From: Terrimonas sp.
GTDB lineage: Bacteria; Bacteroidota; Bacteroidia; Chitinophagales; Chitinophagaceae
Assembly (NCBI RefSeq): GCF_003075435.1
Contig: NZ_QCZJ01000030.1
Span: 1-62,367, forward strand
Length of the DNA stretch: 62,367 bases
Direction: 5' to 3'
Positions 12,316 through 61,904 of the stretch are shown piece by piece. Made by a program: the position numbers and the translations under genes. Under the pieces are notes generated by a model that saw only the letters and a program-made list of their open reading frames with translations, was not told where the DNA came from and did not search any database. How positions within the stretch are numbered: the stretch's first letter is position 1; each line of letters starts with the position of its first letter.

Positions 12316-12381
12316 AAAATGAAATTTTAAATGGTTTGAAAATTCCTACTCTGTTAAAGGTTTTCGGTTACCCCTTCCGCG

Positions 12382-21004: not shown

Positions 21005-21078
21005 CGGACCGGACGGGACTCGAACCCGCGACCTCTGCCGTGACAGGGCAGCATTCTAACCAACTGAACTACCGATCC
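21005..21078 (-). tRNA. tRNA-Asp(GTC)
   Basis: 74 nt, cloverleaf complete: acceptor GGATCGG/CCGGTCC, discriminator G, D-arm GTTCAGTTGGTTAGAAT, anticodon arm CTGCC-CTGTCAC-GGCAG with anticodon GTC, T-arm CGGGTTCGAGTCCCG. CCA is not encoded. The integrase of the neighbouring element lies just downstream of its 3' end, so the tRNA 3' part is the likely attachment site and has stayed intact. Confidence 0.95.
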
Positions 21079-45720: not shown

Positions 45721-45798
45721 CCCGGGCGCAAGCGCCTGGTACCCGAGTATTTTTAACATGCTTTATTTCATGAGTTCATATGCTTGCGCTATATGGTG
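45721..45798 (-). repeat. RHS-locus repeat R1 (partial)
   Basis: CGCAAGCGCCTGGTACCCGAG, then TTTTTAACATGCTTTATT and TCATATGCTTGCGCTATATGGTG on the plus strand. Shares the right half of repeats R2 and R5. It sits just after the last toxin-tail module, at the border of the locus. Confidence 0.7.
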
Positions 45799-45807
45799 AA
45801 ATATCCA

Positions 45808-46284
45808 CTAAATACTATCGCTCGTACTTATATATAATTGAATGATCAAGTAAATTGTTTCAGGGTCAATTGTTTGAGCATTATATGATGCTTGCTTATT
45901 AAAGAAAGATTGAATCCATAGCTGAAATCGAGTATACCAAGGAGGATAAAGTTCATATTTAGTACTCTCTAAAAATCTTTCCTCTTTGCTCATTTCTTTT
46001 GAAACTCCAAAATCTTCGGGTAACATCCCATCTGGGTCAATAAATCTCAATGAATTATTGTAGGCATAACTGTAGGGACTCCATTTTCTTGATACTTCAC
46101 TTAATGGATCTACCACTCCCCATCTCCCTATCTGCGCATCATACATCCTCGCTCCGTAATCTAACCACTCCAACCCACTACCATCACTAAATTCTTTTGA
46201 TTTCAGTTCCTTTCCATTGTACTTGTATTTATTCTCAGGGTTTCCGAACGCCAGCGCCTTGGAGCTTATCCCCGCCATTGTCAA
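45808..46284 (-). CDS. Orphan RHS C-terminal fragment, module 1
   Basis: 158 aa from ATG 46284. The first ~70 residues are the end of an RHS core ([70 protein letters not shown]). After DPDGM a unique tail of ~75 residues follows, starting [17 protein letters not shown] and ending YISTSDSI. Core homology already begins upstream of the ATG, in frame ([12 protein letters not shown]), and overlaps the 3' end of the upstream immunity gene, so the fragment was joined there by recombination inside the core. It has no secretion signal and no immunity gene downstream. Probably silent unless recombined into a full rhs gene. Confidence 0.75.
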
Positions 46285-46334
46285 ACCGAACGGATAATAA
46301 TGTGTCTCCTCAAGAATTGATCTCCATTCATATC

Positions 46335-46970
46335 TTAAAACTCCTTTTGTATCAATTCTAATATTTGCAAAACTTTTTTTGCATTTTTAGTTTTATGGCT
46401 CGAGTTTTTTACATCGGCATAGGAATAGATTCTGTAATTGTTTTCTGTTGCTATTTCTATTGTAATTGTTTCCGAATCCATACTTAAATTGTCATGATAA
46501 TTTTCAATTTTACTATCATCTGGCAAATAAAGCACATCTAATTTAAATAAGCTATCAGCAAAAGAATCCCAACCCGAACAAGGTGGTTTCTCAACCAGAT
46601 CTTTTGTAATTGCAATTATAGAATCAAAGTCTCTATTATAATGCAAAACTAAATTATATAAGTATGCAGACCAATTATTATCCCTTTTAGAAAAGATACT
46701 CAATTGCATAAAATCGGTATGAGGAAACCCTCTCCATATTCTAATTTGTAAATCTTTAGAACCGTTCTCGATAGAACCTATACCTAAGTTACTTTCAATG
46801 CCTTTTTTTATTTTAAAGTAAGATGTATCCCACTTATTAGGTGGAATGTCTTTATCAAAAGAGGTTTCTTTATGGTTGTATGCACTGCTTTTTTTATCAA
46901 ATCTACTTTGTCCAAAACAAGATTGCAAAACGCAAAAAAATGTCCATACTATAATTGCATTAAAACTCAT
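46335..46970 (-). CDS. Probable immunity protein, module 2, exported
   Basis: 211 aa. N-terminus [27 protein letters not shown] looks like a signal peptide or lipoprotein signal (LQSC), so it would act outside the cytosol. The mature part is soluble, charged and mixed alpha/beta ([42 protein letters not shown]). No family recognised. It begins 21 bp after the stop of the toxin tail at 46992-47183, the fixed toxin-then-immunity order of polymorphic toxin loci, and that is the basis for the call. Confidence 0.55.
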
Positions 46971-46991
46971 GATATAATTCTTTAAATACTT

Positions 46992-47183
46992 TTATTTTTT
47001 TGTTTTGTCTTCCTCCCTAAAACTGTTATAGGGTCCATTACATCCAATACAAGGAGACCTATTAGGATCATCATATCCAGGCGGACGGTAATAATCATCA
47101 TCATATTTCATTCTGCTACCTCTGATTGGATCAGTATTATCTACAGGCTTAAGATCTTTGTTTTTATTTGGTCCCCCTATCAG
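46992..47183 (-). pseudogene. Orphan RHS toxin tail, module 2 (remnant)
   Basis: The frame resumes at CTG-ATA-GGG-GGA (LIGG) directly beside repeat R2 and runs 63 codons: LIGGPNKNKDLKPVDNTD...YRPPGYDDPNRSPCIGCNGPYNS...DKTKK. No RHS core, no start codon of its own except a TTG inside the repeat. CIGC suggests a metal site. It is the displaced C-terminal tip of an RHS protein; toxin family unknown. Confidence 0.55.
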
Positions 47184-47455
47184 GCGCAAGGTTGTAAATA
47201 ATCACGATGCAGGCGCAAGCGTCTCGCTTGTGCCGTTTATACAATCAAGCCCTTTTGCCATAAAAATCTCTTGCGCTGCTGTAGTAAATAATTTCTAAAA
47301 GTAATTGAAACTTGAATTTATCGGCACAAGCGGGACGCTTGCGCCTGCTACCCGAGCATTTTTAACATGCTTTATTGCATTAGTTCATATGCTTGCGCCA
47401 TCTGGTGTTTTTAACATGCTTATTGCATTAGTTTGTATGCTTGCGCTATAAGGTG
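47184..47455 (-). repeat. MITE-like repeat R2 at module border
   Basis: Nearly identical to R5. Inverted repeats of 27 bp at 47209-47235 and 47322-47348 (26 of 27 paired), 86 bp apart, each rich in GGCGCAAGCG. Outer ends are (C)CCCTATCAGGCGCAAG and CTTGCGCTAT.TGGTG. The right flank is duplicated in tandem (47359-47407 and 47408-47455, starting TTTTTAACATGC). It lies exactly between the module-3 immunity gene and the module-2 toxin tail. Confidence 0.75.
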
Positions 47456-47490
47456 ACATAATTAATATACTATTAACTGAACTATTAGTT

Positions 47491-48030
47491 TTATAATGAC
47501 AAATCATATTCCTTCGGAGATTTTTCATTTGTTACTAATCGCCATCCAGAAGCTAGTTTTTGCTGAGCATCTTTCCCTACATAAAAGTTACCTATTTTTT
47601 TAAACTCCTTTTTTATTAAAAGCGTTAGTGATTTAAAAAGTTTTAGAGAATCTTCATCATTACTTATTGTTCCTACATATCCTCCAACTAAAATACCATC
47701 TTTTAAAATGCCTGCGACCTTAAACACTATACTTTTAGGATTATTCATTTGATCAATAGCAAACTTATAACCTCCTTTTTTTTGAGGGACTTCTCTAACA
47801 TTAATATGGTTCTCTTTTTGGATAATTAGAAAGCTGTCTGTATGATTCCAATCTCCACTTGACACTTTTCCCAAGTCTTTGTATTCAAAAATTGAGGTAA
47901 AGATTGGAGTAAAATTTAGATCAAACATACCTGCTTGAAAATATTGAACAGATTCTATTTGCTCAAATTTTTTAAAGATTGGATCCATGTCTACAGCGTC
48001 CGCAAAATAATATAATTGTTTGCCTTTCAT
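47491..48030 (-). CDS. Probable immunity protein, module 3
   Basis: 179 aa, cytosolic, no signal peptide (MKGKQLYYFADAVDMDPIFKKFEQIESVQYF). Mixed alpha/beta; ends SGWRLVTNEKSPKEYDLSL. It starts one base after the stop codon of the toxin tail at 48032-48220, which means tight translational coupling and strongly suggests a cognate pair. I cannot name a known immunity family. Confidence 0.6.
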   Translation of the reverse strand: MKGKQLYYFADAVDMDPIFKKFEQIESVQYFQAGMFDLNFTPIFTSIFEYKDLGKVSSGDWNHTDSFLIIQKENHINVREVPQKKGGYKFAIDQMNNPKSIVFKVAGILKDGILVGGYVGTISNDEDSLKLFKSLTLLIKKEFKKIGNFYVGKDAQQKLASGWRLVTNEKSPKEYDLSL

Positions 48031-48031
48031 T

Positions 48032-48220
48032 TTATCGTTTCGGTATTAATAGTAAATGATCACCTGGGATTTGTAGTCTTATCCTTGCAGCATTTCTGGC
48101 CTCTCTTGTAGTAGGCGTTGCATTGATTCTAACATCTATTGTATTTATTCTGATGGTTCTACCATCTTTTGTAGCTGTTATATCGGGATAAGACCCGCCT
48201 TTTCTTCCTCCCCCAAACAG
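48032..48220 (-). pseudogene. Orphan RHS toxin tail, module 3 (remnant)
   Basis: Resumes at CTG-TTT-GGG-GGA (LFGG) at the edge of repeat R3 and runs 62 codons without a start codon: YPDITATKDGRTIRINTIDVR, then TTREARNAARIRLQIPGDHLLLIPKR. This C-terminal pattern (YPDIT...GRTIRINT.D......A..I....PGDHLLLIPK) recurs, from memory, at the ends of bacterial polymorphic toxins; I do not know its activity. Core and export parts are missing, so it is not expressed as such. Confidence 0.6.
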
Positions 48221-48367
48221 TCGCAGTCTCGCTTGTGTCGCTCACGCTACTCCAAAACTGATAAAATAAAGCTTATCATTATAATCAAACTTATATCTAC
48301 AACTTATGACTAAATGTAAAAATTATTAATCAGCTTCATGAGTGAATATGCTGGCGCTATATGGCGA
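48221..48367 (-). repeat. RHS-locus repeat R3 at module border
   Basis: Starts CGCAGTCTCGCTTGTGTCGC and ends TGAATATGCTGGCGCTATATGG on the plus strand. It equals R4 with an internal deletion of about 80 bp after ATCAGCTTC. It lies between the module-4 immunity gene and the module-3 toxin tail. Confidence 0.7.
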
Positions 48368-48407
48368 ACTCCCACTCTGCGGGGAACAAAAGTAACACCC
48401 AGACAAA

Positions 48408-49088
48408 TCACTTTATCTTTTTCTCAAGATCTTTTAGCGACTTCTCAATTTCAGCACGAACATCTCCTTGGTAGTTTTTGCTCTTTGCAGACAAAAATTC
48501 AAAATCATCCATCTTCCCTATATATGTAAACGCATCTGCAACCTGCAACGGATATATGTCAAACACACTTCTTAGCAATAGGTGTGACTTTGAGTACGGA
48601 AGATATTTCATCGCTGCATATATAAGCATTTCATTTTCCTTTCCTTGATTTGGCGACATTAACTTTTTTTCTATCCATGTATCTATATTAAGAACATTAG
48701 CACTTGCAATAGTATTTCCTATTGCCCATTTTAAACTAAATGAGGGACTGTTTTTATCAAAAAGGTCAATTAAAAATTTCCCATCAAAAGCTACTTCTGA
48801 TATAGCTAATGCCCTAATTAATATTTCTTGTGAATGATTGTCATTGTTAATTTGGGGTATCCATCGTATTAAAATATTGGTAAGTTGCTCAGGGATACTT
48901 TTATATTTCAACAAATCTGAAGATTGCTTTATTTCTTTAAAGCCACTTTTTTGTACCTCTTTAATAAATGGAATCTCAGCAAGCTTTATTTCCTTTTCCT
49001 TTTTTTCTAACTCTTTTTGCTTGTCTTTCTGTCTTGCTATATATTCCGGATCCTGCTGAAGTTGTTTTAATAAATCAATTGCTTTCAT
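48408..49088 (-). CDS. Probable immunity protein to a Tox-REase-7-like toxin, module 4
   Basis: 226 aa from ATG 49088 (MKAIDLLKQLQQDPEY); the frame continues to 49130 inside the toxin tail. Soluble and all-alpha, with HEAT-like helices (ILIRALAISEVAFDGKFLIDLFD; SLKWAIGNTIASANV; LLRSVFDIYPLQVADAFTYIG). It begins 7 bp after the stop of the nuclease tail at 49096. Its frame is intact although the toxin has two stops. Cognate immunity by position; all-alpha proteins are common partners of such nucleases. Confidence 0.65.
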   Translation of the reverse strand: MKAIDLLKQLQQDPEYIARQKDKQKELEKKEKEIKLAEIPFIKEVQKSGFKEIKQSSDLLKYKSIPEQLTNILIRWIPQINNDNHSQEILIRALAISEVAFDGKFLIDLFDKNSPSFSLKWAIGNTIASANVLNIDTWIEKKLMSPNQGKENEMLIYAAMKYLPYSKSHLLLRSVFDIYPLQVADAFTYIGKMDDFEFLSAKSKNYQGDVRAEIEKSLKDLEKKIK

Positions 49089-49095
49089 TATATAG

Positions 49096-49713
49096 TTATT
49101 TGGGTAAAAGCAATAAATTAATATTTCCATTAGCCACCTGTTGCTGTAATGGTCTACTAAGTTGAGTAGTTGGCCTCACATATAAATCAAATCTCAAACC
49201 ATTCTGTTGACTATACTGCATATAATCTTTTAGCTGATTAATCATTGATAAATTTTTGACATTTTTAACTTCCGAAAGAGTTGTATTTGTTAACCCATCT
49301 GGAATGCGGTAACTAGCAGTGCCACTTAAAGATGGTATTCTTGTAGTATTTTATTCGATACCTGCTGCTGCCATTCCTTCCTTACCCAATTGTGCTGCTG
49401 TTTTAGTTGCATTTGCAGCTTCTGCTCCTGCCAAAGCATTTTTTACCGCACCCACCCCTTTCGACAACACAACTGCTTCTGCTGTTTTTTCTAATCCATA
49501 ACCAGCGGCATGTCCCAATTCATCACTGCTCATGTTGGGTATATTCTGAACACCTTCAACGATGTTTTAGCCAACCTGTGCTCTTTGCATAACGGTCTCT
49601 GGTGACGAACCGTTTACCATGTCTACGGTAGCTGCAACCCCTGTTGCAAGGTTCTTCCAGCCTTCTGTTGTTCCCAGACTACGGATAAAATTTTTGGTAT
49701 CTCCCCCAAACAG
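49096..49713 (-). pseudogene. Orphan RHS toxin tail with Tox-REase-7-like nuclease, two in-frame stops, module 4
   Basis: From CTG-TTT-GGG-GGA at repeat R4 the frame reads FGGDTKNFIRSLGTTEGW, a pre-toxin helix region (HAAGYGLEKTAEAVVLSKG; AGAEAANATKTAAQLGKEG), then RIPSLSGTASYRIPDGLT, TLSEVKNVKNLSMINQLKDY, and LRFDLYVRPTTQLSRPLQQQ. This is the restriction-endonuclease-fold toxin Tox-REase-7 pattern, with the catalytic D (RIPDG), E.K (SEVKN) and QL..Y blocks present. TAA stops interrupt it at 49567-49569 and 49351-49353. Without them it would be one frame of 205 codons. The nuclease part is otherwise complete, so decay is recent. Confidence 0.75.
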
Positions 49714-49940
49714 GCGCAGTCTCGCTTGTGTCGCTCATGCTACTCCAAAACTGATAAAATAAAGCTTATCATTATAAACAAACTTATATCTACAACTTAT
49801 GACTAAATGTAAAAATTATTTATCAGCTTCTAAAATTAATTGGAGGCACCAAGTATTAACCGCACAAGCGGACGCCTGCTACCTGAGTATTTTTAACAGG
49901 CTTTATTTCATGAGTGAATATGCTGGCGCTATCAGGCGTG
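49714..49940 (-). repeat. RHS-locus repeat R4 at module border
   Basis: Begins GCGCAGTCTCGCTTGTGTCGC, contains ACCGCACAAGCGGACGCCTGC then TGAGTATTTTTAACAGGC, and ends TATGCTGGCGCTATCAGGCG. Long form of R3; its right part is a diverged version of R1/R2/R5. It lies between the module-5 immunity gene and the module-4 toxin tail. Confidence 0.7.
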
Positions 49941-49951
49941 GAACTTAAGTT

Positions 49952-50389
49952 TTAATCAAAAAAATTTAACCATTTCTGAGAATGTAATTGATCCTGCTGA
50001 ATCACTTCCTCAAGTTCTGGATAATATTTCAGATTATCTACAGAAATCTTTTTGACCCTTAAGCTAATTCCATTTAAGTACTGTCCTTTTATAACATATA
50101 AATCAGAAATATTCTGTTGAAATTTATTTTTTATTCGTTCTTTAGTGACATCATATTTATCCAGTTGTATATCGTCTAAAATTTGCATGCCCCAAGTTTC
50201 TTCTACTTTAATTAACTGAAAAATTCGTTCATTAGTTTGCGTATTAAAGTAAACAACGCTTGCTAAATACGATTGCAAAGGATTCAGCGTTTTAACCAAA
50301 GCAATGATTGGACCATCGTACCAATCGATGACAACTACTTCGGTGAATATTTTTTCTCCTTCATCTTGAATATTTAGCTTCTCCTTCAT
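49952..50389 (-). CDS. Probable immunity protein, module 5
   Basis: 145 aa, cytosolic, acidic (MKEKLNIQDEGEKIFTEVVVIDWYDGPIIALVKT). Mixed alpha/beta. It starts one base after the stop of the 26-codon toxin remnant at 50391-50471, the same coupling as in module 3. No known family recognised; the call rests on position. Confidence 0.55.
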   Translation of the reverse strand: MKEKLNIQDEGEKIFTEVVVIDWYDGPIIALVKTLNPLQSYLASVVYFNTQTNERIFQLIKVEETWGMQILDDIQLDKYDVTKERIKNKFQQNISDLYVIKGQYLNGISLRVKKISVDNLKYYPELEEVIQQDQLHSQKWLNFFD

Positions 50390-50390
50390 C

Positions 50391-50471
50391 TTAATTTTTT
50401 AGTGGTGTAAATATTGAATTAAAAAGATCAGCAACTTCTTGAGTTACCGGGTTTGGCAATTCCCCTATCAG
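50391..50471 (-). pseudogene. Orphan RHS toxin tail, module 5 (26-codon remnant)
   Basis: CTG-ATA-GGG-GAA at the edge of R5 opens a frame that reads LIGELPNPVTQEVADLFNSI then FTPLKN and stops. Almost all of the toxin has been lost. It keeps the in-frame junction codons seen in modules 2, 3 and 4. Confidence 0.5.
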
Positions 50472-50697
50472 GCGCAAGGTTGTAAATAATCACGATGCAG
50501 GCGCAAGCGTCTCGCTTGTGCCGTTTATACAATCAAGCCCTTTTGCCATAAAAATCTCTTGCGCTGCTGTAGTAAATAATTTCTAAAAGTAATTGAAACT
50601 TGAATTTATCGGCACAAGCGGGACGCTTGCGCCTGCTACCCGAGTATTTTTAACATGCTTTATTGCATTAGTTCATATGCTTGCGCTATATGGTGGG
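50472..50697 (-). repeat. MITE-like repeat R5 at module border
   Basis: 27-bp inverted repeats at 50497-50523 and 50610-50636, 26 of 27 positions paired, around 86 bp; GGCGCAAGCG and CGCTTGTGCC repeats inside each arm. Outer ends ATCAGGCGCAAGG and GCTTGCGCTATATGGTG form a second, weaker inverted pair. Essentially the same sequence as R2. It lies between the module-6 immunity gene and the module-5 tail. Confidence 0.75.
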
Positions 50698-50706
50698 CTA
50701 TCAACT

Positions 50707-51123
50707 TTAATTAACTTTAGAAAAAATAATAGCTCCCCACATTAGAACAATTGGTAGAAACATTGAAATAACAAAATACGATATGAAAAGTTTCCCATTG
50801 TAGTAAGGATATTTGTTTAACAACTTCTCATACCTCCTATTCCGGAATATTAATAGATAATTTATCAATGCACATGGTAAAATAAATAGAATTACGTAAG
50901 TCAATACATTATTAACACGCACAGGGAAAAAAGGTATATCAATTTTATAAAAATAATTTCGCAAGATGAACTTTTCCAAAATTGTCATGATCAATACAAA
51001 ATTGAACGCCATCGCAAGTGTCATAAAAATCATTGTTCCCACCTGCCAATTGTGTCTATTATTAGGCTGTGACCTTGCCCTTGTAATACAATCAACCCAA
51101 ATTCGATAATATAATCCTATCAT
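50707..51123 (-). CDS. Membrane immunity candidate, module 6
   Basis: 138 aa with three membrane helices at ~28-52 (QVGTMIFMTLAMAFNFVLIM), ~70-93 (VNNVLTYVILFILPCALINYLL) and ~111-135 (LFISYFVISMFLPIVLMWGA). Clearly homologous along its whole length to the product of 53211-53639. It follows the RHS fragment at 51142-53031 by 18 bp. A membrane-embedded immunity protein suggests a toxin that acts at or across the inner membrane, or on a periplasmic target; that is inference. Confidence 0.65.
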   Translation of the reverse strand: MIGLYYRIWVDCITRARSQPNNRHNWQVGTMIFMTLAMAFNFVLIMTILEKFILRNYFYKIDIPFFPVRVNNVLTYVILFILPCALINYLLIFRNRRYEKLLNKYPYYNGKLFISYFVISMFLPIVLMWGAIIFSKVN

Positions 51124-51141
51124 TTATTAGAAATTAAGCGA

Positions 51142-53031
51142 TTACCTAAAATAATCGGTCCAATTATAAATTCCACTGTCATATTCATTCTGCATGATTA
51201 AATCATTTTCACTACTTCCGGTTGTTGGTCGCCAATTGTTTATTCGTGGATCGTTATATATCATATCCAATGCCATATACATATTTTGAAATGCTGCTAA
51301 TCCTATGCTGGCTCTACCAGCAATTGTTGAAATCGCAGACATAGTTTGAGGAGCAAATCCAAAATAAGAAAGTCCTTCGGCCGTTAATCCCGACGTCCCT
51401 AAGGCTAGTCCTGTTGCATCTACAGGGCTAATATCGCCTTTTAAATATTGATCGCGGACCTGAATTGCTGTTAATAAATTTGATACCAACGAAATTCCAA
51501 AACCCGTACCTCTTATTAAATTAGAACGTTGCCTATACATTCTAGCTTGTCTTGAAATTTTTCGTCCTATTGGAAGTGGTCGTATTTCGCCTTTCGTTGT
51601 AATGTAGTTCTGGTGATCGTAATTACTTACTGATATTCCATATGCCAAGTCAGTCATTCCAATAAAAAATGTAACACTTTGTAGGGGTGTTAAGGTTGAA
51701 TTTGATTGGGAAGTCGAACCGCCAACAGTTACATTGGCTAAAGTTTGCGATTGTATCCATCCATCCTGACTATTATAAATAGCTTCCTGACCTTTATTAT
51801 TAATCCAAACATCTCCTGAATTAGGTTTGTAGTTATCGGGGAGTTTCCCTCTTACAGTATCAAGACCAAAAGGATCGTTAAATAATATCGGATTATTCTG
51901 ACTAAAAGAATAAATAGAAAAGTTTAAATCTGCTAACGGGTCAATCTGATGGAACCTTCCAATCTGTGCATCATACATTCTAAATGTAGCATCATATAAT
52001 TCCAACCCACTACCATCACTGAACTCTTTATTCTGTAACTCATTCCCTCCATTAAACTTATACTTATTTTCCGCAATTCCATTGAGCGCTTTGGAACTTA
52101 TCCCCGCCATGGTGAGTCCGAACGGATAATAATGCGTCTCTTCAAGAATGCCACCCCTGGTGTGGATCACCTGCAAATTGTCAAAGAACACATCAACGGG
52201 ACTTTCGTTGCTCACGTAAATATACACATATCCGTTCTTCAGCGCTGTTTTATTTGTAAGGTCGGTATGTGTTTTAACAACACTGCTCGTGCCTACTTTA
52301 CTGAACCCGCTGCCTGCTACCTTAAACTGTTCATCAAAAAAGATATAATTGATATAGGCTTTGGGTACTGTAGGCGCTCCTGCTGCATCAGTGGTTTGAT
52401 TACCAAGCAATGTAGTAATACCTGATGTTACATCGCTGATGCCATTGAGCTGCGAGGACGTTATACCTCCATGCGCAGCAGCCGCTGCTCCTCCGGTCGG
52501 ACCGCCCAATAAACCGGTAAGGATGTCCAGCACCGGTAGGGCTTTATTGGCTGAAGTACCACCTGTATTGCTGGTAAAATAATAGCTCTTGCCAAAGATA
52601 TCTATCCTGTCACCTGCCATTACTTTTAGGGTGATGCCAAGCCCGGTCACACCTTCAGTGGCAGTGGCTTTCAGTTTATATAATTTGGCGCTGTTAGCGG
52701 TGGTATTGCTGTAGTCGTTATTGTTTACCGGGGGATTGCCATTGTTATTGGGGTAATCGGTTATACCGGTAGCCGCTGTTTTATCAACAATATTAGCGCT
52801 GTTAATGGTATAATAATTTTGTTCTTTATACACGGCATTAGGATAGCTGTTCGTGCTGATGCTGCCTTCCAGCGTTGCTACAGAGTATATATCCTGCTTG
52901 TATTCATCTGTTAATACCATACGCACATTGCCTAGATGGTCTTTAATAAAATAATCATACACAAAACCCGTAGGGGTGTTGGTGGTGGAAGCATTGTTGT
53001 ATAATGGTAGGCGAAGAAAGGATGGTATCAC
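51142..53031 (-). CDS. Orphan RHS fragment (core plus C-terminal tip), module 6
   Basis: 629 aa, no signal peptide. It starts inside a typical RHS core ([35 protein letters not shown]), carries the long linker shared with the main protein ([33 protein letters not shown]), the core end ([33 protein letters not shown]) and a ~240-residue tip ending [15 protein letters not shown]. Over the linker and core the DNA is almost the same as in 54680-55500 of the main gene, while the tips have diverged ([14 protein letters not shown] versus [14 protein letters not shown]). This is a tandem duplicate of the main gene's 3' part with its immunity gene. Confidence 0.8.
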
Positions 53032-53200
53032 TAACTCTGGAACACGATGCTATGGCACTAAGCATATTTTACTATCAGAAGCCTTAAAATGAAAAGAGAC
53101 GGATATACCATCCATCTCTTTTATAACCTGTCCTTACAGGCTTTTATTGATCTTCAATTATTTAACTATTCAAAATTATCCCATCACTAACTCTGGAACA
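53027..53200. repeat. 18-bp direct repeats flanking a 138-bp segment
   Basis: ATCACTAACTCTGGAACA occurs at 53027-53044 and 53183-53200. The segment between has a hairpin AAAAGAGA-c-GGAT/ATCC-a-TCTCTTTT (53092-53122) that can act as a terminator. The repeats lie exactly at the 5' break of the orphan fragment, so they may be a footprint of the duplication or of a lost insertion. Confidence 0.55.
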
Positions 53201-53210
53201 TTACCCACTG

Positions 53211-53639
53211 TCAGGCGGAATTAATTTTAGAAAAAAAAATACCTGCCCACATTAGAATAATGGGTAGAAACATTGAAATAAGAAAATACGATATGAAAAG
53301 TTTCCCATTATAATAGTAAGGATATTTGTTTAACAATTTCTCATACCTGTTATTCCTGAATATTAACACATAATTCATGAGTGCACACGGCAAAATAAAC
53401 AGTATCAAATAGCTTAATACATTATTTACACGAACAGGTAAGTATGAAAATTCTATTTTATAAAAATATTCTTTAAATACAAATTTCTCTAAAACGGTCA
53501 TAATTAATATGAGATTGAATGCCATAGCCAAACTCATACTTATCATGCATCTTAATTTCCAGTTCCCCTGATTGGCAATGGGTTGTAATTTAACCCGGTG
53601 AATAAAATCCATCCAAATGCGATAATATACTCCCATCAT
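53211..53639 (-). CDS. Membrane immunity candidate, module 7 (main RHS)
   Basis: 142 aa, three membrane helices at ~29-53, ~71-94 and ~113-138; homologue of the module-6 protein (shared EKFV...EYFYKIE, PVRVNNVLSYLILFILPCALMNY, RYEKLLNKYPYY). It starts 57 bp after the main rhs gene, the normal place for its immunity gene. The best-conserved part is the loop between helices 2 and 3. No named family. Confidence 0.65.
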   Translation of the reverse strand: MMGVYYRIWMDFIHRVKLQPIANQGNWKLRCMISMSLAMAFNLILIMTVLEKFVFKEYFYKIEFSYLPVRVNNVLSYLILFILPCALMNYVLIFRNNRYEKLLNKYPYYYNGKLFISYFLISMFLPIILMWAGIFFSKINSA

Positions 53640-53696
53640 GTCTTTGCATTATTTAATTTTTAAAACCGGAGTCATCATTTATCAGAATCCAAGCTA

Positions 53697-56600
53697 TTAC
53701 TTGAAATAATCAGTCCAGTTATAAATTCCACTATCATATTCATTCTGCATGATTAAATCATTTCCTGCACTTCCTGTTGTTGGTCTCCAGTTGTTTATTT
53801 CAGAATTATTGTATATCATGTCTAATGCCATATACATATTTTGAAATGCAGCTAACGCCAAACTGGCTCTGCCTGCAATAGTTGAAATTGTTGTAAGTGT
53901 TGGGCTCTGAATCCCGCCTACGAGGGTTAGCGTATTAGCCGCAATTCCTACTGTTCCTATCGTTAAAGCTGCTCCATCGAAAGGATCGATATTGTCTACG
54001 CCACCTTTCAGGTACTGGTCGCGTACCTGAATCGCTGTTAAAACATTCGATGCCAAAGACAGCCCATAGCCTATATTTTTAACATATGTAGAACGCGTTT
54101 TAAATTTCCTTGCCTGCTTTGATAAAGGGCGTGTAATAGGGAAACTTTTTATTTTACCCTTGGTGGTAGTATAATTATCATGGTCATATGTGCCCTCCCA
54201 CAGACCATAGTAAGTGTCCGTTACTCCTACAAAAAATGTAACGCTCTCTAGCGGTGTCATTTTTTTTGAATTGCCGGTAGCAGTTACAGTGGTTAATGTC
54301 TTTGATTGCACCCAGCTTTCCCCATCAAATATAGATTCCCGCCCATTCTCATTAAGCCAGACATCGCCCTCATTAGGAATATAATCATTGGGAAGTATCC
54401 CTCTGATTGTATCAAGACCAAATGGGTCATTAAATATCGCGGGATTATTTTGAGCAAAAGAATATATGGAAAAGTTTAGATCTGCCAATGGATCTATTTG
54501 ATGAAATCTTCCGATTTGTGGGTCTAACATCCTAAAACTTGCATCATACCAATCTAAGCCACTACCATCACTAAATTCCTTATTCTGTAATTCATTTCCT
54601 CCGTTAAATCTATACTTATTCTCTACTGCATTATTCAGCGCCTTGGATGATATCCCTGCCATCGTCAAGCCGAACGGGTAATAATGCGTCTCCTCCAGTA
54701 CAGCTCCCCTGGTGTGCACTACCTGCAGGTTGTCAAAGAACACGTCAACGGGACTTTCGTTGCTCACGTAAATATACACATATCCGTTCTTGGGTGCTGT
54801 TTTATTTGTCAGGTCTGAGTGGGTTTTAACAACACTGTTCGTGCCTATTTTACTGAACCCGCTTTCCGCTACCTTAAACTGTTCATCAAAAAAGATATAA
54901 TTGATATAGGCTTTGGGTACTGTAGGCGCTCCTGCAGCATCAGTGGTCTGGTTGCCGAGCAATGTAGTAATGCCTGATGTTACATCGCTGATGCCATTCA
55001 ACTGAGAGGGCGTTATACCTCCATGTGCAGCCGCCGCTGCTCCTCCGGTCGGACCGCCCAATAAACCGGTAAGGATGTCCAGCACCGGTAAGGCTTTATT
55101 AGCTGAAGTACCACCTGTATTGCTGGTAAAATAATAGCTCTTGCCAAAGATATCTATCCTGTCACCTGCCATTACTTTTAGGGTAATGCCAAGCCCGGTC
55201 ACACCTTCAGTGGCAGTGGCTTTCAGTTTATATAATTTGGCGCTGTTAGCGGTGGTATTGCTGTAGTCGTTATTGTTTACCGGTGTGCCATTGTTGTTTG
55301 CATAAGCTGTTATACCGGTAGCGTCTGTTGTGTCTGCTATTTTGGTAGTATCAATGGCATAATAATGCTGTTCTTTGAACACGGCATTGGGATAGCTGTT
55401 GGTGTTGATATTCCCTTCCAGTGTTGCTGCAGGATAAATATCCTGCTTAAACTCATCGGTGATCACCATGCGTACATTGCCCAGGTGGTCTTTGATATTG
55501 TAGTCATACGCCCAGGTCTGGGTGCCTGATGGCAGTGTAAATACCCTTGCCCTGCCTTCTTCATGCTGTATGAACAGCAGCTTATCGCTATAGTTCAATG
55601 AGCTTAATGCCGCGTTATCATAGCTCTTGCTTTCATATACATAACCGGTCATATACTTGGTGGTGGTGGTAACCGTGCTGGTATAACCGGTGCCGCCCAA
55701 CTGTACAGTTACTCCGGACTCTGTGGTAGTCTTCTGTAATTTGTTGCCGGCATAATCATGTAAATATGCGATGGTGCCTTTGGCTGTGGTAACCAGCTTT
55801 ACCAGCTCGTTGGTGCGCCAGTATTCTATACTGGTGATGCCTTTGTTCTTGTCTGCTGTAATGCTGCCGTTGCGGTTATAGCTGTAATCGTCATCACTGT
55901 TGGCGCCGTTCTTAAAGTCCCCATAGCTTACAGGGATCGTGGTTGTTATATCGTCTGTTACCTTTGCCAGCTTGTTGCTGTTGTTAGCGTAGGTATAAGT
56001 TAGCTTGTCCAGGTCAAAATTGCCGGGCTGCCCTATTTTTAACCCGTACTGGTTCATTGTCTCGATATTGCCATTCAGATCATAGCTGAGATTATTTACT
56101 GTATAGTTGGCTTCAGTGTTTATCCAGCTGGTGCCGGAGGCGCTTTGCTTAAAGTCTGCGGTCAGCAGCCGGTTTGCCTGGTCATAGGTGAAGTTGTATA
56201 CCCGCCCTGTCATATCTCCGCGGCTTTTCCATTGCATGCCGGCTATATTGCCATTGTACTGCGCGGCAGTATAGCTCAGGGATGTATTGGCGCTGGCGGG
56301 CTTATCGTAGCCGAGATCAAAGCCAAAATAGTTGCCGTCCGTGCTCATGGCTGGCATGGCGCCGCCATTGCCTGCCAGCAGGCTGCGGTTCACCCCCAGC
56401 AGCCAGCCGCGTATATTGTAGGTATAGTTTAAATGCTCCAGCGGCTCGGTGCTGTAAGTAGCATAGGCCGGCGCTGTTCTTTTTTTGCCCAGCTCTTTTT
56501 TCTGTAACTGCCCCAGCGCGTCATACCGGTTGCTGGATATCACTGTCCATTCCGATGGAAGCGCATTGCTATTCACACTGGCATGCTGTATCTTCTTTTG

Positions 56601-58340
56601 CGTGGTCACCAGCCGGCCCAGGTCATCATAAGTATAATCGGTTATTTCATAGCTGCGTACATTGGAGGAGGTGCCCATTATCTTTTTATCCTTGCGGGCC
56701 ACGACCCTGAGGGGCTGCCCGGCCCAGTTATACTGGGTAGTGGTGATGTCGCCACCGCCGATCCCCTCAAAGGGCTGGAACTTTTCCTGCACTACTCTTC
56801 CCTTGTCATCGTAAAAATAGATGTAGTACACAAAGTTTACCGTACCGTATATGAGTACTCTTTTCCAGGTAACCAACCCGCGTGTCTGGGCAGACTTTTG
56901 TATGGGTTGGGCATATAGTGGTGTGGTATTATAGGTTGTATGGATATAAGCGCTATAATCGGTAGCCAGGCTGGTGCTGAAGCCGCATTCTGCGGGTATA
57001 TCAGCATAATCATCATAATGATTTTCTTCGAGGATGGCCCACACGGTTTGACTGGTTGGTCTTGTGGCAAGGGAGAAGGGGTAGGTGGTGCTGCTTTTTG
57101 CATTGGTAAGGTGCTGAGCAAAGGTGGAGCCGTTCTGGTCAGCGGTAAACCCGGTAAACCGCAGGCGGTTCAGGTCATCATAGATATAGTTTACCCATAC
57201 GTCAGCGCCTGGCGTTCTCTGCTTGCCGTCCTGGCTCATCACCAGCCTGTCCCTGGCATCGTACACCATGTATACGGCATCGGCTTCTGTAATGCCGGCT
57301 ACTTTTTTTATGATCATGCGGTTGCGCTCATCATACTCGTAGCGGAAGCAAAGCTCATTTAAAATGGTGGCATCGCTTAATACCCAGGCGGATCTTATGG
57401 CTTCAACGCCTTTGGGCTGCACAACGCAACGCAGGTTGCCCAGGTCGTCGTAAATATAACAGGTGCACAGCCAGCCGTCATAGCCCTGCCCGGCGCCGGT
57501 GTCATCGCTGCCGGTAAGCTGCACTTTCTTTAGTATTACTTTGCCTTCCTTGTCTTTAAACGCTATTACCTGCTTGTCGTTCTCGTCTATGGTAATGGTT
57601 TTGTACAGGGTGCCGGCGGCATAAGCGCCGGGGCTGGTATAGGTGCTGAAGCTGCCCACGGCTGCAATGTTCACATTCCATATCCTTACGGCGTCGGTTG
57701 CTGTGTTTACATAATACTTAATGCGTACATTTTTCTTTAAGGCTTCTGTACTGCCGCCTTCGCTGCCTACCCAGCCTGCACCGGGAGCGTAGGTATTATC
57801 CACGCGGTTCAGGGGCGATGGCTCAAAGTTGGTTTTGCTATAGGCCCAGTTAAGGCTGTTAGTGCCTACATTAGTCTCCCCGGCTTGACCGGATAACTGT
57901 GTATTATAAAACGCTACCTGCTGTGCAAAAGGGTTGAGCTTGAATGTACCATCACTGACGGATGTATTGCCGCCGGTGGTATTGGCAGGTGAGGGCAGGT
58001 ATTTGTATTGTTCCCTGCCGAACTCATCATATAGCACGGGGCTTACCAGATCAACCGCTGTGCCGCCTGTAGGATAGGAGCCTTGTTTTACTACCGTTTG
58101 CAAAGGTCTGCCCAGCCCGTCGAAGTATTGGGTGGCTTGCTGTACATCGCGAAGGGGTCTTGTGGTTAGTGTGGTGGCATTCTGCTCAGGGGCACGGGCT
58201 TCCCAAACCCGGATATAGTTGACCGTTGTGCTGCCGGGATAGGCGGAGGGTAGCGGTTGCTGCGCCTGAACAGTAATGTGCAGGGCACAGATCAATAAAC
58301 AGCTCAATAATTTTGCAGGTTGGTTTATTATATAAAACAT
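53697..58340 (-). CDS. Full-length RHS polymorphic toxin (DUF6443 type), module 7
   Basis: 1547 aa. Signal peptide 1-26 (ends ITVQAQ). Residues ~35-180 are the DUF6443 N-terminal domain ([41 protein letters not shown]). YD/RHS repeats follow to ~980 ([35 protein letters not shown]), then the RHS core ([15 protein letters not shown]...[17 protein letters not shown]...[21 protein letters not shown]). After DPFGLD (~1303) comes the ~245-residue variable tip ending [13 protein letters not shown], toxin family unknown. The RHS part should form a cocoon around the tip. It lies 18 bp after the TcB-like gene, and its immunity candidate follows. Confidence 0.88.
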
Positions 58341-58358: not shown

Positions 58359-61300
58359 TTATTGATTGTTGGATTGTTGGTATTGATAGTCCATGGTCTT
58401 GAGAACATTCCTGTCCTGGTCGCGGATGGTCTTTAACCTGCCAAAACTGTCGTATTCATAATAAATGATCTTGTTATTGGCATTGCACTGGCTCGTCATG
58501 CCTATTAACGGTTCGTAGGTGTAGGTGGTCATCTGGGCGGAGGCGGGATAAAGACGGAGCTCATCAATTATACCACTTGTGCCTGATACTGTTATTAATC
58601 CACCTGATGGATTTACTACTTTGTGTTCATAGTATGTCCAGCCGTTGATGGTTTGCCCGGTAGTGGGCGTAGTGCCGTTAACGGTAACTGTCCCGCTTTT
58701 TTTCCAGTAGGAAACAATATAAGTGGTAGTTGTACTCAGCCCGCTTTTGGTGATGTTGTTGGCACTGTTCACAATGGTGAATGCTTTTTTACCGGTTGGT
58801 GCGGTAGCATCTGCTGCGGGTGTGCCGGTATATGTCCAGTTGCCTTTGCTGTCTGCTTCAAAGGAGGTGTGGGCAATGTCGGCTACAGGGGAATTAGTAA
58901 CCTGCGCTATAGGATAAACACTGTTGTAATCCCAGATATAGGATTGCTTTGCATCGTTTGTTTTTGACTGTTCAAGTATTTTGCCGTAACTATTATATTG
59001 GAAATATTTTGTTCGTTCTTCTAAAGAAAATCCCATTTCCTGTATACTATGTGTTTGTGGAAGTATAAGACCGTTTGTAAATGTATTGTATCCCGTTTTA
59101 AGGCTATATAATTGTGTACTCCCTTTAAAAATTTGTTGCTGAATTACAGCAGCGATCATATATTTAGATATCAGCCCCAACCTTGCAGTTTCTTCAGTAC
59201 CGGTTAAAGCAATATCTTGTGGATACCATGTTTTAACATAACTACTTATTCCATCACTTTTGTAAGTAGTTTGTTTAGTGGGTAAGGCATGGGCAACATT
59301 TCCATACTCGGTAATCTCAACCTCTTCAACATAGCTTTGCCCGTTAATGTCATAGTTCCAGGTTTTTAATGTATCTAAATAAACCCATTTTCTAAAATTG
59401 GAATATACTGCTAAATCATATGCATTTTGTTCCATAGGATGAGGGGTTCCCGGATTATTATCACAGTAAATTGCGTACTTTTTATTAGCGAAGTAAGATT
59501 GGAAATCAGCATTGATTCTTGAATCTTCTTTGTAGCTAAAAAAGACTTTTTTTACAGGAACATAGTTGCTTCCTTGCAACTTAAAGGTATGTTGATATAA
59601 CTCCCTACTATTTCTCCATGCATAACTACTAAGCGGTCCTCCCAATAAGATAGTATTTCCCACCAATGAATATGAAGGTTCGTCTGGATTTAGCAAGTAC
59701 TTATGTTCAATTCCTCCGTTTTCAAAATTATCTCCAAAGCTTTCTATTACATCGCTATAAGTAATTGGAGCAGATGAATATACATAAATATTATTTAATG
59801 TATTAGAGTACATGCTATAGAAGCTATAAGTCTGAACATCGCAATTAATCATACCCGTAGTACCTTCATCACCTGTCTCTCTTCCACTCATACATGGAAT
59901 TAAAACACTCAAATATTTCTCGTATTGGGGAGGAGCATAAGATATGCCACCAGAAGAAATACCCGGAGTAGAAAGTTTATAGTATAAATATTTTTTTATA
60001 GTTGGGGTATTGCTAATATTATCATAAGTAAGAACACGTGCGACCCTGACACCACCTGTATTAACATTCACACTTTGAGTTGTAACGTTCCCAGATCTGT
60101 AAAATAATGTTCCAATTCCTGTTACATTATCTCCATTAGAATTAATTTTTACTCTGTACGTGTGGCCGGATGTTAAAGCAAGAATTTCTGAAAAGTTCTG
60201 TCCAGGGAAAATTGTTTTGGTAAAAACTACAGCATTGGTTTCATCTATTAAAGATATAGTAGATTGATCGTGGATCGGATCTCCACCAGTGGTACTATTA
60301 GAAACACATTGACCGATTAAAGTAACTTCCTGATTATAACTTACTACTGCATTAGCAGAATAATTGGTTGTTCCAGCTCCGCCATGATACTCTAAATTGG
60401 TTGCACTAATATTGACTGAAGTTTGTGCTGGATAGGTTGTTACACTCTGATATATTTGATTAGCTTCATATTCAATACTATCCTTGCCCCCAGTTGGATA
60501 TGTAATTGAACAAAGAAGCCCCTTCTTTGCAAAATCAGGATCAACTTCTCTGTTGGCTGTAGCCAATGGCAGCTTTGATTGCCATGTAAGGGTTGATGGG
60601 ACAGGGATTAGTGTCGTGTTATTTTTACCATTGAAAAAACCAAAATGATCTTGTGCAAATGATAACCTGGGGGGAAGGGCATTGATATCTTTATAAACAA
60701 AAGAGTGCTTCCGTGATAATGTACCATCATTATTTTGCTCCATCAGACTTAGCAGGAATGGCCAGTAGGTTAATTTGTTATTGCCCGTTGAAAAACTGTT
60801 TTTGAAACTTGTGGCAATACCATATTGATAGTTTAATGTAAAGGAGCGAAAAATTGTTGTTTGCCCCGGTTGATATACATTAATGCCAGTTAATAATTTA
60901 TCATCTCCATCACTTCTGTCTGCGTAAGTAAAAGTTATTTTTTCACCTACCGTTGAATTTATTTCTGTAAGTAAAACCCCTTCCGACTGTAAAATATTCT
61001 CACAAATGGTATTGTTTAATAATGGAGGTGTTACTTCAAAACCAGCACAGGCAGAGGGCTGTTGGGAATTATCTCTTTCATAAATAGCCTGTTGAATTCC
61101 GGTAGAATAAGTGAATGCAGTGGTAGAATACGTAAAGATAATCTCATCATTATTTGGATGAACAATTTTTTTAAGATACCATGCTGTGGGTATAAATACT
61201 GTTATATTTCTTCCACATCCTGCACCTGCTGTTATTTTTTTTGTCCGTTCTCTCGCATTTTCGCCGCCAAAAAAATATTGAACCCCATCAGGTCCGGTAA

Positions 61301-61904
61301 TCTTAAAATTCCAATCTGTGGAAGAAAAATCTTTTTCAATTTTAAGATTAGAATAATTCAACAACAGGGGATTAAGGTTTTCATCCAGGATAAATTTTCC
61401 ACTATAACCGTTAAAGTTAAAAGAAAACACATCTGGTTGCCCGTCCGGACCATTCCATTCACCGCTCGAAATAGCTTCCATGTAATCAATTAAACCTCTT
61501 GACATTTGAGGAAAATTTGCTGGTAGCGCCATACGGGTTGAACTTTCATCTACGCTTCCAAATACAGTTCGGGTAATAACTCCTCCGGCATTAAAACTCC
61601 ATCCTACACCAACTCTGCCTGCAAGTTCATCTACCCTGAAACCATTTGTTGAATAAGACAAAGACACCGAAACTTTTAAATTAGTTGATGTATTCTCGGT
61701 TATAGGTATATTGATATTTATGGTTCCTGTTGAAAGCCCTAAATCAACACCCCCATATTTCCCCAAAGACGCTGCATTAGGGGATGGCGGCAATACATCA
61801 TTGATCTTAGAAAAATCACTTGGATTAGGCGAACTTTGACAAAAAGAAAATGTTGTCAATAAAATATTTGCGGTTAGCAAAAAAAAGTATTTTCCTAATA
61901 ACAT
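58359..61904 (-). CDS. SpvB/TcB-like large secreted protein, partner of the RHS toxin
   Basis: 1181 aa. Signal peptide 1-24 (ends TFSFCQ). The N-terminal ~250 residues have the SpvB-like pattern VDLGLSTGTININIPI, VSLSYSTNGFRVDELAGRVGVGWSFNAGGVITR and GPDGVQYFFGG. The C-terminal part includes a carbohydrate-binding-like beta-sandwich (~1040-1120) and ends with an RHS/YD motif (ITYTYEPLIGMTSQCNANNKIIYYEYDSFGRLKTIRDQ). In Tc toxins a TcB and a TcC protein close into one shell; this pair (SpvB-like then RHS with variable tip) has the same logic. In Bacteroidota such pairs are frequent and little studied; whether they assemble similarly is inference. Confidence 0.75.
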   Translation of the reverse strand: MLLGKYFFLLTANILLTTFSFCQSSPNPSDFSKINDVLPPSPNAASLGKYGGVDLGLSTGTININIPITENTSTNLKVSVSLSYSTNGFRVDELAGRVGVGWSFNAGGVITRTVFGSVDESSTRMALPANFPQMSRGLIDYMEAISSGEWNGPDGQPDVFSFNFNGYSGKFILDENLNPLLLNYSNLKIEKDFSSTDWNFKITGPDGVQYFFGGENARERTKKITAGAGCGRNITVFIPTAWYLKKIVHPNNDEIIFTYSTTAFTYSTGIQQAIYERDNSQQPSACAGFEVTPPLLNNTICENILQSEGVLLTEINSTVGEKITFTYADRSDGDDKLLTGINVYQPGQTTIFRSFTLNYQYGIATSFKNSFSTGNNKLTYWPFLLSLMEQNNDGTLSRKHSFVYKDINALPPRLSFAQDHFGFFNGKNNTTLIPVPSTLTWQSKLPLATANREVDPDFAKKGLLCSITYPTGGKDSIEYEANQIYQSVTTYPAQTSVNISATNLEYHGGAGTTNYSANAVVSYNQEVTLIGQCVSNSTTGGDPIHDQSTISLIDETNAVVFTKTIFPGQNFSEILALTSGHTYRVKINSNGDNVTGIGTLFYRSGNVTTQSVNVNTGGVRVARVLTYDNISNTPTIKKYLYYKLSTPGISSGGISYAPPQYEKYLSVLIPCMSGRETGDEGTTGMINCDVQTYSFYSMYSNTLNNIYVYSSAPITYSDVIESFGDNFENGGIEHKYLLNPDEPSYSLVGNTILLGGPLSSYAWRNSRELYQHTFKLQGSNYVPVKKVFFSYKEDSRINADFQSYFANKKYAIYCDNNPGTPHPMEQNAYDLAVYSNFRKWVYLDTLKTWNYDINGQSYVEEVEITEYGNVAHALPTKQTTYKSDGISSYVKTWYPQDIALTGTEETARLGLISKYMIAAVIQQQIFKGSTQLYSLKTGYNTFTNGLILPQTHSIQEMGFSLEERTKYFQYNSYGKILEQSKTNDAKQSYIWDYNSVYPIAQVTNSPVADIAHTSFEADSKGNWTYTGTPAADATAPTGKKAFTIVNSANNITKSGLSTTTTYIVSYWKKSGTVTVNGTTPTTGQTINGWTYYEHKVVNPSGGLITVSGTSGIIDELRLYPASAQMTTYTYEPLIGMTSQCNANNKIIYYEYDSFGRLKTIRDQDRNVLKTMDYQYQQSNNQ

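Follow-up and report, generated by a model that had tools for sequence, protein, structure and literature searches.

The stretch of DNA analysed here (the window) covers 62,367 nt of a contig of Terrimonas sp. (NZ_QCZJ01000030.1) and carries on its minus strand, from 58340 to 45724, one full rhs gene followed by six further toxin tips, as seen from the open reading frames (ORFs) and by direct reading. Comparison of this locus with its relatives indicates that a site-specific mobile element probably replaces the tip of the Rhs protein and supplies an immunity gene, the array in the window being a stack of older tips. The element itself is well supported; that it gave rise to the array in the window is a proposition for which the scales are about evenly balanced. 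Below, C denotes contigs of the Terrimonas sp. genome, L fetched loci and G other genomes, and the tip-bearing modules of the window are numbered M0 (the full gene) to M6.

We propose that the active 3′ tip would be replaced repeatedly, with older tips and their immunity genes pushed downstream, and that at least part of this replacement would be carried out by an element of ~6–9 kb, which we name the tip-swapping element. Its left end consists of a core end, a toxin tip and an immunity gene, followed by an antisense helix-turn-helix (HTH) regulator of the Cro/CI type, sometimes a SymE-like gene, a CHC2/Toprim primase (or its ATPase-like second half only), a XerC/D-like recombinase (XerA), a degenerate second recombinase (XerB) and the right end. 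The attachment site would be a conserved codon motif of the rhs core, so that integration would fuse the tip of the element in frame to the resident core and bring in the matching immunity gene. The old tip would be left behind the right end as an orphan, and later elements would stack in front of it. The backbones would then decay, a process that would be advanced in the window, where no backbone gene was found and four orphans are cut to tails at repetitive extragenic palindromes (REPs) or their inverted pairs (REPINs). The stretch of core retained by M1 points to homologous recombination or duplication as a second route.

The genome contains 20 core-end matches, and three of the contigs concerned, C49, C53 and C64, hold the backbone that the window array lacks. 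In these other arrays modules of tip and immunity gene stand at the head of elements measuring 7–8 kb. The order in C53 is tip, immunity gene, antisense HTH gene, SymE/AbrB-like gene, primase with CHC2 and Toprim domains (its second half has only weak Pfam matches), two tyrosine recombinases and right end, and the right end extends as far as the next core-end motif of rhs, TATTATCCGTTYGG, whose codons read YYPFG. The contig C53 measures 7836 bp in all, and the 13 nt with which it opens are found again at its close. A 28-nt probe for the right end (≤3 mismatches) finds four places in the genome, and the reversed control none. These are the right edge of C53 and the positions immediately before three tips in C2, C56 and C64; the three tips and their immunity genes share no similarity (all-against-all, E ≤ 0.01). 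One and the same right end thus stands before unrelated tips, and the orphans in C2, C56 and C64, as well as that in G108, have YYPFG in frame, as the main genes do. The C64 copy is cut inside the primase gene. The complete copy in C49, situated between a main rhs gene and the orphan behind it, is a diverged one: of the primase only the second half is present, without CHC2, the SymE gene is missing and a RadC gene has been added, and the orphan that follows has YYTAFG in place of YYPFG.

The pattern R, K, HxxR, H, Y is the catalytic signature of tyrosine recombinases. All of these residues are invariant in XerA (10/10 sequences). XerB has no HxxR histidine in any of 10 rows and no first R in eight of them (one row is a fragment); it is probably a partner. 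The HTH protein resembles the RstR repressor family at a score below the cut-off (63.7 vs 80 bits). Direct repeats of the kind expected of attachment sites are found at both ends of C53, of the tandem units of L210 and L265 and, to the extent that these were viewed, of those of L266. The 9-mer GTTCTTTGA occurs in 10 of the 12 right ends examined; in seven of these its distance from the site is −66 to −67, four of the seven being near-identical copies (in the right ends of G006, G334 and G289 the site was taken as the start of the hidden Markov model (HMM) match). It also lies at −58 in 10 of 15 cores, encoding part of VFFDN, and stands 58 nt upstream of the YYPFG site of M0; when the right ends were shuffled by mononucleotide, 24 of 24,000 shuffles contained it. 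We regard it as a candidate arm site for the recombinase.

The element is found well beyond this genome. Its primase has matches in 15 of 195 genomes of the family (E ≤ 1e-30) and in 12 of 395 of the phylum (E ≤ 1e-40), our own being counted in each, and many of them cover the second half only, like that of C49. The fetched stretches hold 41 primase places, with tandem copies counted apart and one place split by a stretch boundary. A same-strand Rhs core end lies within 5 kb upstream at 23 of the 30 places that have at least 4.5 kb of DNA on the left, where ~0.8% per 5-kb same-strand stretch would be expected by chance (arithmetic from 20 core ends in 6.18 Mb). The antisense HTH gene is present at 29 of the 37 places with enough DNA, XerA at 22 of 27, XerB likewise at 22 of 27, and a further core end downstream at 15 of 22. 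Among 37 rhs-core loci of named genomes, 14 have an antisense HTH gene of the element type, two a primase match and one a XerA match; primase and XerA matches are so few that in the majority of these arrays remnants are the most that can be left of the element. The arrays may be longer than listed, as only a few candidates per genome were scored.

Stacking of complete elements is seen directly. In G108 a full rhs gene is followed by two stacked complete elements with similar right ends on a contig of 468 kb. Two units in G279 are 99.97% identical over 6790 nt and the shared stretch starts at the motif; in G526 the backbones are 99.97% identical and the tips differ. The units of G385 are 99.9% identical, and those of G256 (73–80%) and G108 (80–84%) have diverged. 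On the complete plasmid pAT2 of Aureibacter tunicatorum a full RHS gene is followed by two units of 8169 bp that are 99.98% identical, and behind them come two backbone-less tips (polymorphic toxin type 47, then an RHS orphan), which is how displaced older tips should look. The complete plasmid of Aureispira sp. CCB-E has units of 7652 bp that are 100% identical over 6704 nt within the fetched stretch. The site differs by lineage: YYPFG in the Terrimonas genome, G108, G279 and G526, Y.YGFNG in Aureibacter and G006, and the HLGN region in Aureispira. Relatives of the element primase are present in 27 plasmid records, 13 of them from Leptospira; the surroundings were viewed for Aureibacter and Aureispira only.

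The array in the window, of which all features lie on the minus strand, begins with the full rhs gene M0 at 53697–58340. It encodes 1547 residues, with Pfam DUF6443 (PF20041, E 2.4e-37) in its N-terminal part, the RHS-associated core at residues 1220–1309 (NCBIfam Rhs_assc_core, TIGR03696, E 2.7e-11, above the cut-off) and the active tip at ~53700–54404. Its YYPFG codons, at 54670–54683, form a candidate attachment site, the motif being the one found at the right-end junctions in C2, C56, C64, C53 and G108. A short gene follows at 53211–53639, the M0 immunity candidate, which is hydrophobic and has 142 residues and, by eye, several membrane spans. M1 (51142–53031) is an orphan with ~900 bp, mostly core, before its YYPFG site and a tip related to that of M0; its immunity candidate is at 50707–51123. 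Between the M0 immunity candidate and M1 lies Block X (53081–53210), a non-coding repeat of 130 bp with a hairpin by eye, of the kind that lies to the left of core-bearing orphans.

The next four modules have tails only. M2 (50391–50465) is a tip of 24 residues with the REPIN R1 (50462–50695) at its left edge, and its immunity candidate is at 49952–50389. M3 (49096–49704) has at its left edge the REP element R2 (49701–49943); stops split its tail into three open pieces, the last of which is Tox-REase-7 (Pfam PF15649, E 5.8e-19, on 49099–49350), and its immunity candidate is at 48408–49088. M4 (48032–48226) has the REP element R3 (48208–48371, 97% identical to R2 over 130 nt) at its left edge and an immunity candidate at 47491–48030. 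M5 (46992–47177) has at its left edge the REPIN R4 with an extra REP (47174–47460), and its immunity candidate, with a signal peptide by eye, is at 46335–46970. The most distal module, M6 (~45808–46315), is a core end (TIGR03696, E 2.5e-14) with a tip and has its YYPFG site at 46286–46299; it has no immunity gene and is followed by a solo REP of 86 bp (45724–45809).

Most of what a first-pass annotation had said of this layout is borne out. It described a full rhs gene with six displaced same-strand tips and six immunity candidates, and direct reading gives the same picture, with a short gene behind each of M0–M5, the active tip included, and none behind M6. The distances it gave from toxin stop to the next ATG, 57, 18, 1, 7, 1 and 21 bp for M0–M5, are all six exact. 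Its statement that of the tips only the first two share sequence holds as well: when all tips and immunity candidates were compared with one another (E ≤ 0.01) only M0 and M1 matched, with tips 58% and immunity proteins 70% identical. Its claim of shared core ends holds for M0, M1 and M6 and fails for M2–M5, which have none. There is no graded decay along the array as it had proposed, because M6 keeps more core than M2–M5, and ‘unusually complete’ was an overstatement, a relative having arrays with seven recognisable core ends (L077, L078). The repeats that separate the tail-only modules had not been described.

That the window holds a genuine polymorphic-toxin locus, its older tips displaced, as that annotation had also supposed, is shown by Tox-REase-7 in M3 and by the recurrence of the M0 tip and its immunity gene behind Rhs core ends elsewhere. 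The tip of M0 occurs in 3 of 394 genomes of the family, our own counted, and in both of the others, which belong to two other genera (L269, L270), it is preceded by a Rhs core end and followed by a gene related to the M0 immunity gene; the copy in L269 has an internal stop. Short genes with unrelated housekeeping functions, or tails that occur in no RHS protein of any genome, had been named as observations that would speak against such a locus; neither objection stands for M0 and M3, since the M0 pair recurs with Rhs core ends and M3 is Tox-REase-7. The expectation that the tails would be found in RHS proteins or toxin families was not borne out for M2, M4, M5 and M6 in the data searched: none of these tails had a match outside the array among 102 fetched loci of over 3.5 kb, and Pfam gave none for the tails of M4 and M5. 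In the same 102 loci the M5 immunity candidate has distant relatives in L086 (27% identity, E 3e-17) and L075 (30%, E 4e-10), and the immunity candidates other than those of M4 and M5 have no relatives there. For that of M4 no relatives were found beyond our own genome (1/394 genomes of the family). Pfam showed no match to E 0.1 for any of the six immunity candidates (M3 queried with an upstream start), and NCBIfam none for those of M2–M5 or for the tail of M4, nor did it put a name to that of M3. The genes behind M0–M5 would neutralise the adjoining tips, whose toxin activities are likewise putative; what is seen is their position and, for M0, a pairing conserved in two other genomes.

Comparison at the level of the genus was less informative. 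The rhs core is present in 7 of 12 genomes of the genus, our own counted, and outside our own no near-full-length match exceeds 61% identity, which is too distant for synteny to be compared. For G108 the core is present in 2 of 15 genomes of its genus, itself counted, and no useful orthologue was obtained.

Several further features of these loci deserve mention. Copies of Block X (87–98% identical) are present in the fetched regions at L058 4746–4870, L051 11832–11951, L055 7940–8065, L056 8281–8404 and L057 14510–14635; several of them precede core-bearing orphans, and TTCCAGAGTTAGTGAT flanks the window copy on both sides. Possibly Block X is a terminator at the 3′ end of rhs, marking junctions of a third kind. 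In four orphans (L066 9645, L258 8696, L051 9465 and window 46299) the YYPFG site lies almost directly behind the previous gene with no backbone between, and two of the four have the motif AGTTCTTT; such orphans may have arisen by precise deletion, or else represent minimal cassettes mobilised in trans. Upstream of the rhs gene a gene for a protein of 1181 residues (58359–61904) has a relative, 49% identical over the last 145 residues, on C57 (L062), a contig of small size on which there is an RHS-repeat match. Rfam places a DUF805b RNA at 12343–12377 and a tRNA at 21005–21078 of the window. A group II intron suspected by eye in L051 was dismissed, as none is listed at Rfam gathering thresholds in the window or in L051, and a XerA-like match at window position 19579 proved to be part of another gene far from the array.

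The repeats at the left edges of all four tail-only tips, M2–M5, measure ~160–290 bp, and each of these tails begins within a few bases of the right end of its repeat, beside a run of G. R1 and R4, which are 99% identical, are inverse pairs of REP hairpins with arms of 45 nt placed 86 nt apart and 80–82% complementary. A full-length version in C2 encodes a REP-associated tyrosine transposase (RAYT) of 187 residues (NCBIfam NF047646, 90.7 bits against a cut-off of 80), the one of eight own-genome matches that exceeds this cut-off. R2 is 82% identical to this RAYT element over 208 nt, and since the first 25 codons of RAYT are still to be found in R2 and R3 (68% identity) these two are internal-deletion forms of it. 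A further tail in C2 likewise begins at a REP, and in C56 a RAYT gene of a second type runs straight into an orphan tip, so that all six of the tail-only tips recognised in the genome start at a REP or RAYT; others may exist, since tails without a core are hard to recognise. This second-type gene (L058 3007–3808) is followed by the orphan tip and an immunity gene, and a RAYT 97% identical to it is found at the end of C18 (L060). By a hand tally in which some relics were judged by reading alone, 11 of the 17 REP places in the genome have a Rhs tip, an immunity gene or a relic of the core no more than ~260 nt away, and one further place has such a feature within 1 kb, figures that are biased upward because the probes were taken from the array. 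In C2 a REPIN (L051 13787–14023) lies directly against what remains of an HTH gene, its last 79 codons, 98.7% identical to the HTH of the tip-swapping element. We read the REPINs as scars of deletions.

How, then, did the array in the window arise? A breakpoint near the motif is seen in four of eight pairs of core copies from this genome, with 91–97% identity to the left and 60–68% to the right of a point not more than 50 nt from the motif. Between the main gene and one of the C2 copies the core shows 97% identity as far as a breakpoint fitted at −49 (range −62 to +35), beyond which identity falls to 68%; the other three breakpoints are at +33 (M1/C2_c), +50 (C2_b/C14) and +14 (C11a/C11b). A number of observations speak against an origin through the tip-swapping element. 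Searches of the window array with tblastn and purpose-built HMMs found no remnant of the HTH gene, primase or recombinases, and none of four right-end motifs is present on its minus strand; as no backbone is kept, the link of this array to the element is inferred. The ~900 bp before the site of M1, mostly core, mean that M1 was not left there by the right end of an element, and of the 98 distinct tips with the motif in the fetched loci 72 are still preceded by 40 or more residues in frame, so that most orphans are not simple right-end junctions. The break falls near −125 in both C49 pairs and in the pair main/C2_b; in C2_b/C2_c there is a less marked step, at +51. Neither an excised circle nor an empty site was seen, and the excision, the circular form and the integration chemistry in our proposal are conjectural. 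The association of the primase with Rhs core ends at 23 of 30 places has chance arithmetic as its sole yardstick, with no control at random places, and the remaining seven places have no Rhs core end.

Three of these seven (two in G385 and one in G345; L206, L207 and L217) ride with other toxin-like modules, which are not Rhs and, judged by reading, are large secreted proteins. With the recombinase backbone standing beside toxin-like modules of this kind, the targets may be wider than Rhs.

It follows from the core of M1 and from the 72 of 98 tips that homologous recombination also acts. Whether it acts alone, having built the window array by exchange between conserved core ends with the recombinase elements as passengers in rhs loci, is a possibility to which we give some weight while thinking it doubtful. 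The long core of M1, 77–92% identical to the main gene depending on the stretch, would be as expected, as would the residues kept upstream of so many tips, breakpoints spread over tens of bases with some as far off as −125, and the lack of any backbone remnant in the window. What it leaves unexplained is that one right end abuts the same codons before unrelated tips, that exact tandem units are bounded by core motifs, and that 14 of the 37 loci from named genomes have an antisense HTH gene behind their tips.

A second alternative, that REPINs and RAYT mobilise tip and immunity gene as composite single-stranded units and that the window is a row of RAYT cassettes, seems unlikely. It would account for the four tail-only tips of the window and the tips of C2 and C56 beginning at a REP or RAYT, for the full RAYT gene running into the orphan tip of C56 and for the 11 of 17 REP places near Rhs relics, the tally being the one biased by array-derived probes. 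M1 and M6, which bear a core, have no REP at their left edge, however, and the REPIN of C2 abutting a truncated HTH gene looks like the scar of a deletion; for these two reasons we rank mobilisation of cassettes by REPINs below deletion scars. Finally, an assembly artefact, in which collapsed repeats joined unrelated contig ends, is suggested by the many rhs pieces at contig ends (C2, C14, C53, C56 and C64) and is highly improbable given that the window array lies inside one contig and that the same arrangements are found in single-contig genomes (G526 and G256, and G385 with another toxin type) and on complete plasmids.

The tip-swapping element has points in common with several known systems, which we compare on the strength of excerpts from the papers concerned. 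Orphan arrays delimited by a conserved motif were described in PMC3150448 (2011), where in the excerpt the mechanism is called unknown. PMC3482391 (2012) inferred recombination of toxin–immunity cassettes and recorded XerC/D genes near polyimmunity loci, and PMC5727410 (2017) reported Rhs-associated integrases in bee gut bacteria, their role only being suggested and recombination inferred. Orphan arrays of Rhs and contact-dependent inhibition (CDI) systems, as the excerpts present them, share with ours a full toxin gene followed by orphan tip and immunity pairs, some with variable stretches of core, and mutually unrelated tips thought to be exchanged at a conserved sequence; the difference here is a defined recombinase element with a candidate attachment site in rhs codons that carries the tip itself. 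GInt islands (PMC5385486, in excerpt) are likewise tyrosine-recombinase islands with adjacent recombinases, cargo and flanking imperfect repeats. They have three integrases, a small protein and variable cargo, whereas the tip-swapping element has two recombinases, a primase/ATPase-like protein, an antisense regulator and a tip with immunity gene fused into the target gene; two recombinases, rather than the three integrases of ginABCD, were found in the complete elements examined. The rAID system (PMC12247911, in excerpt) is also from Bacteroidota and has a tyrosine recombinase beside immunity genes. It is an array of orphan immunity genes, whereas each unit here brings a toxin tip and an immunity gene and changes the active weapon; a toxin tip stands at the head of the units, each of which has a single immunity gene. 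With REPIN/RAYT systems the genome shares a RAYT above the curated NF047646 cut-off and inverted REP pairs. In the open literature, most subscription journals being outside its coverage, we recognised no description of a recombinase element targeted to rhs and found no paper that mentions ‘REP-associated tyrosine transposase’ together with ‘Rhs’.

Taken more widely, these results raise the idea, for and against which we see equal weight, that an autonomous family of elements in Bacteroidota integrates in the codons of rhs and other polymorphic-toxin genes, becomes the current weapon of its host, immunises it and leaves earlier tips and immunity genes behind as a stacked record, that it may replicate as a circle by means of its primase, and that displaced-tip arrays, that of the window included, are graveyards of such elements shortened by REPIN-linked deletions. 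From a dedicated recombinase element with its attachment site in the toxin codons one would expect a circular junction, an empty site, stacking in order of age and a recombinase pair amenable to assay. REPIN/RAYT-linked deletion would be a second force, one that erases displaced-tip arrays, and such arrays would be readable as histories of insertion.

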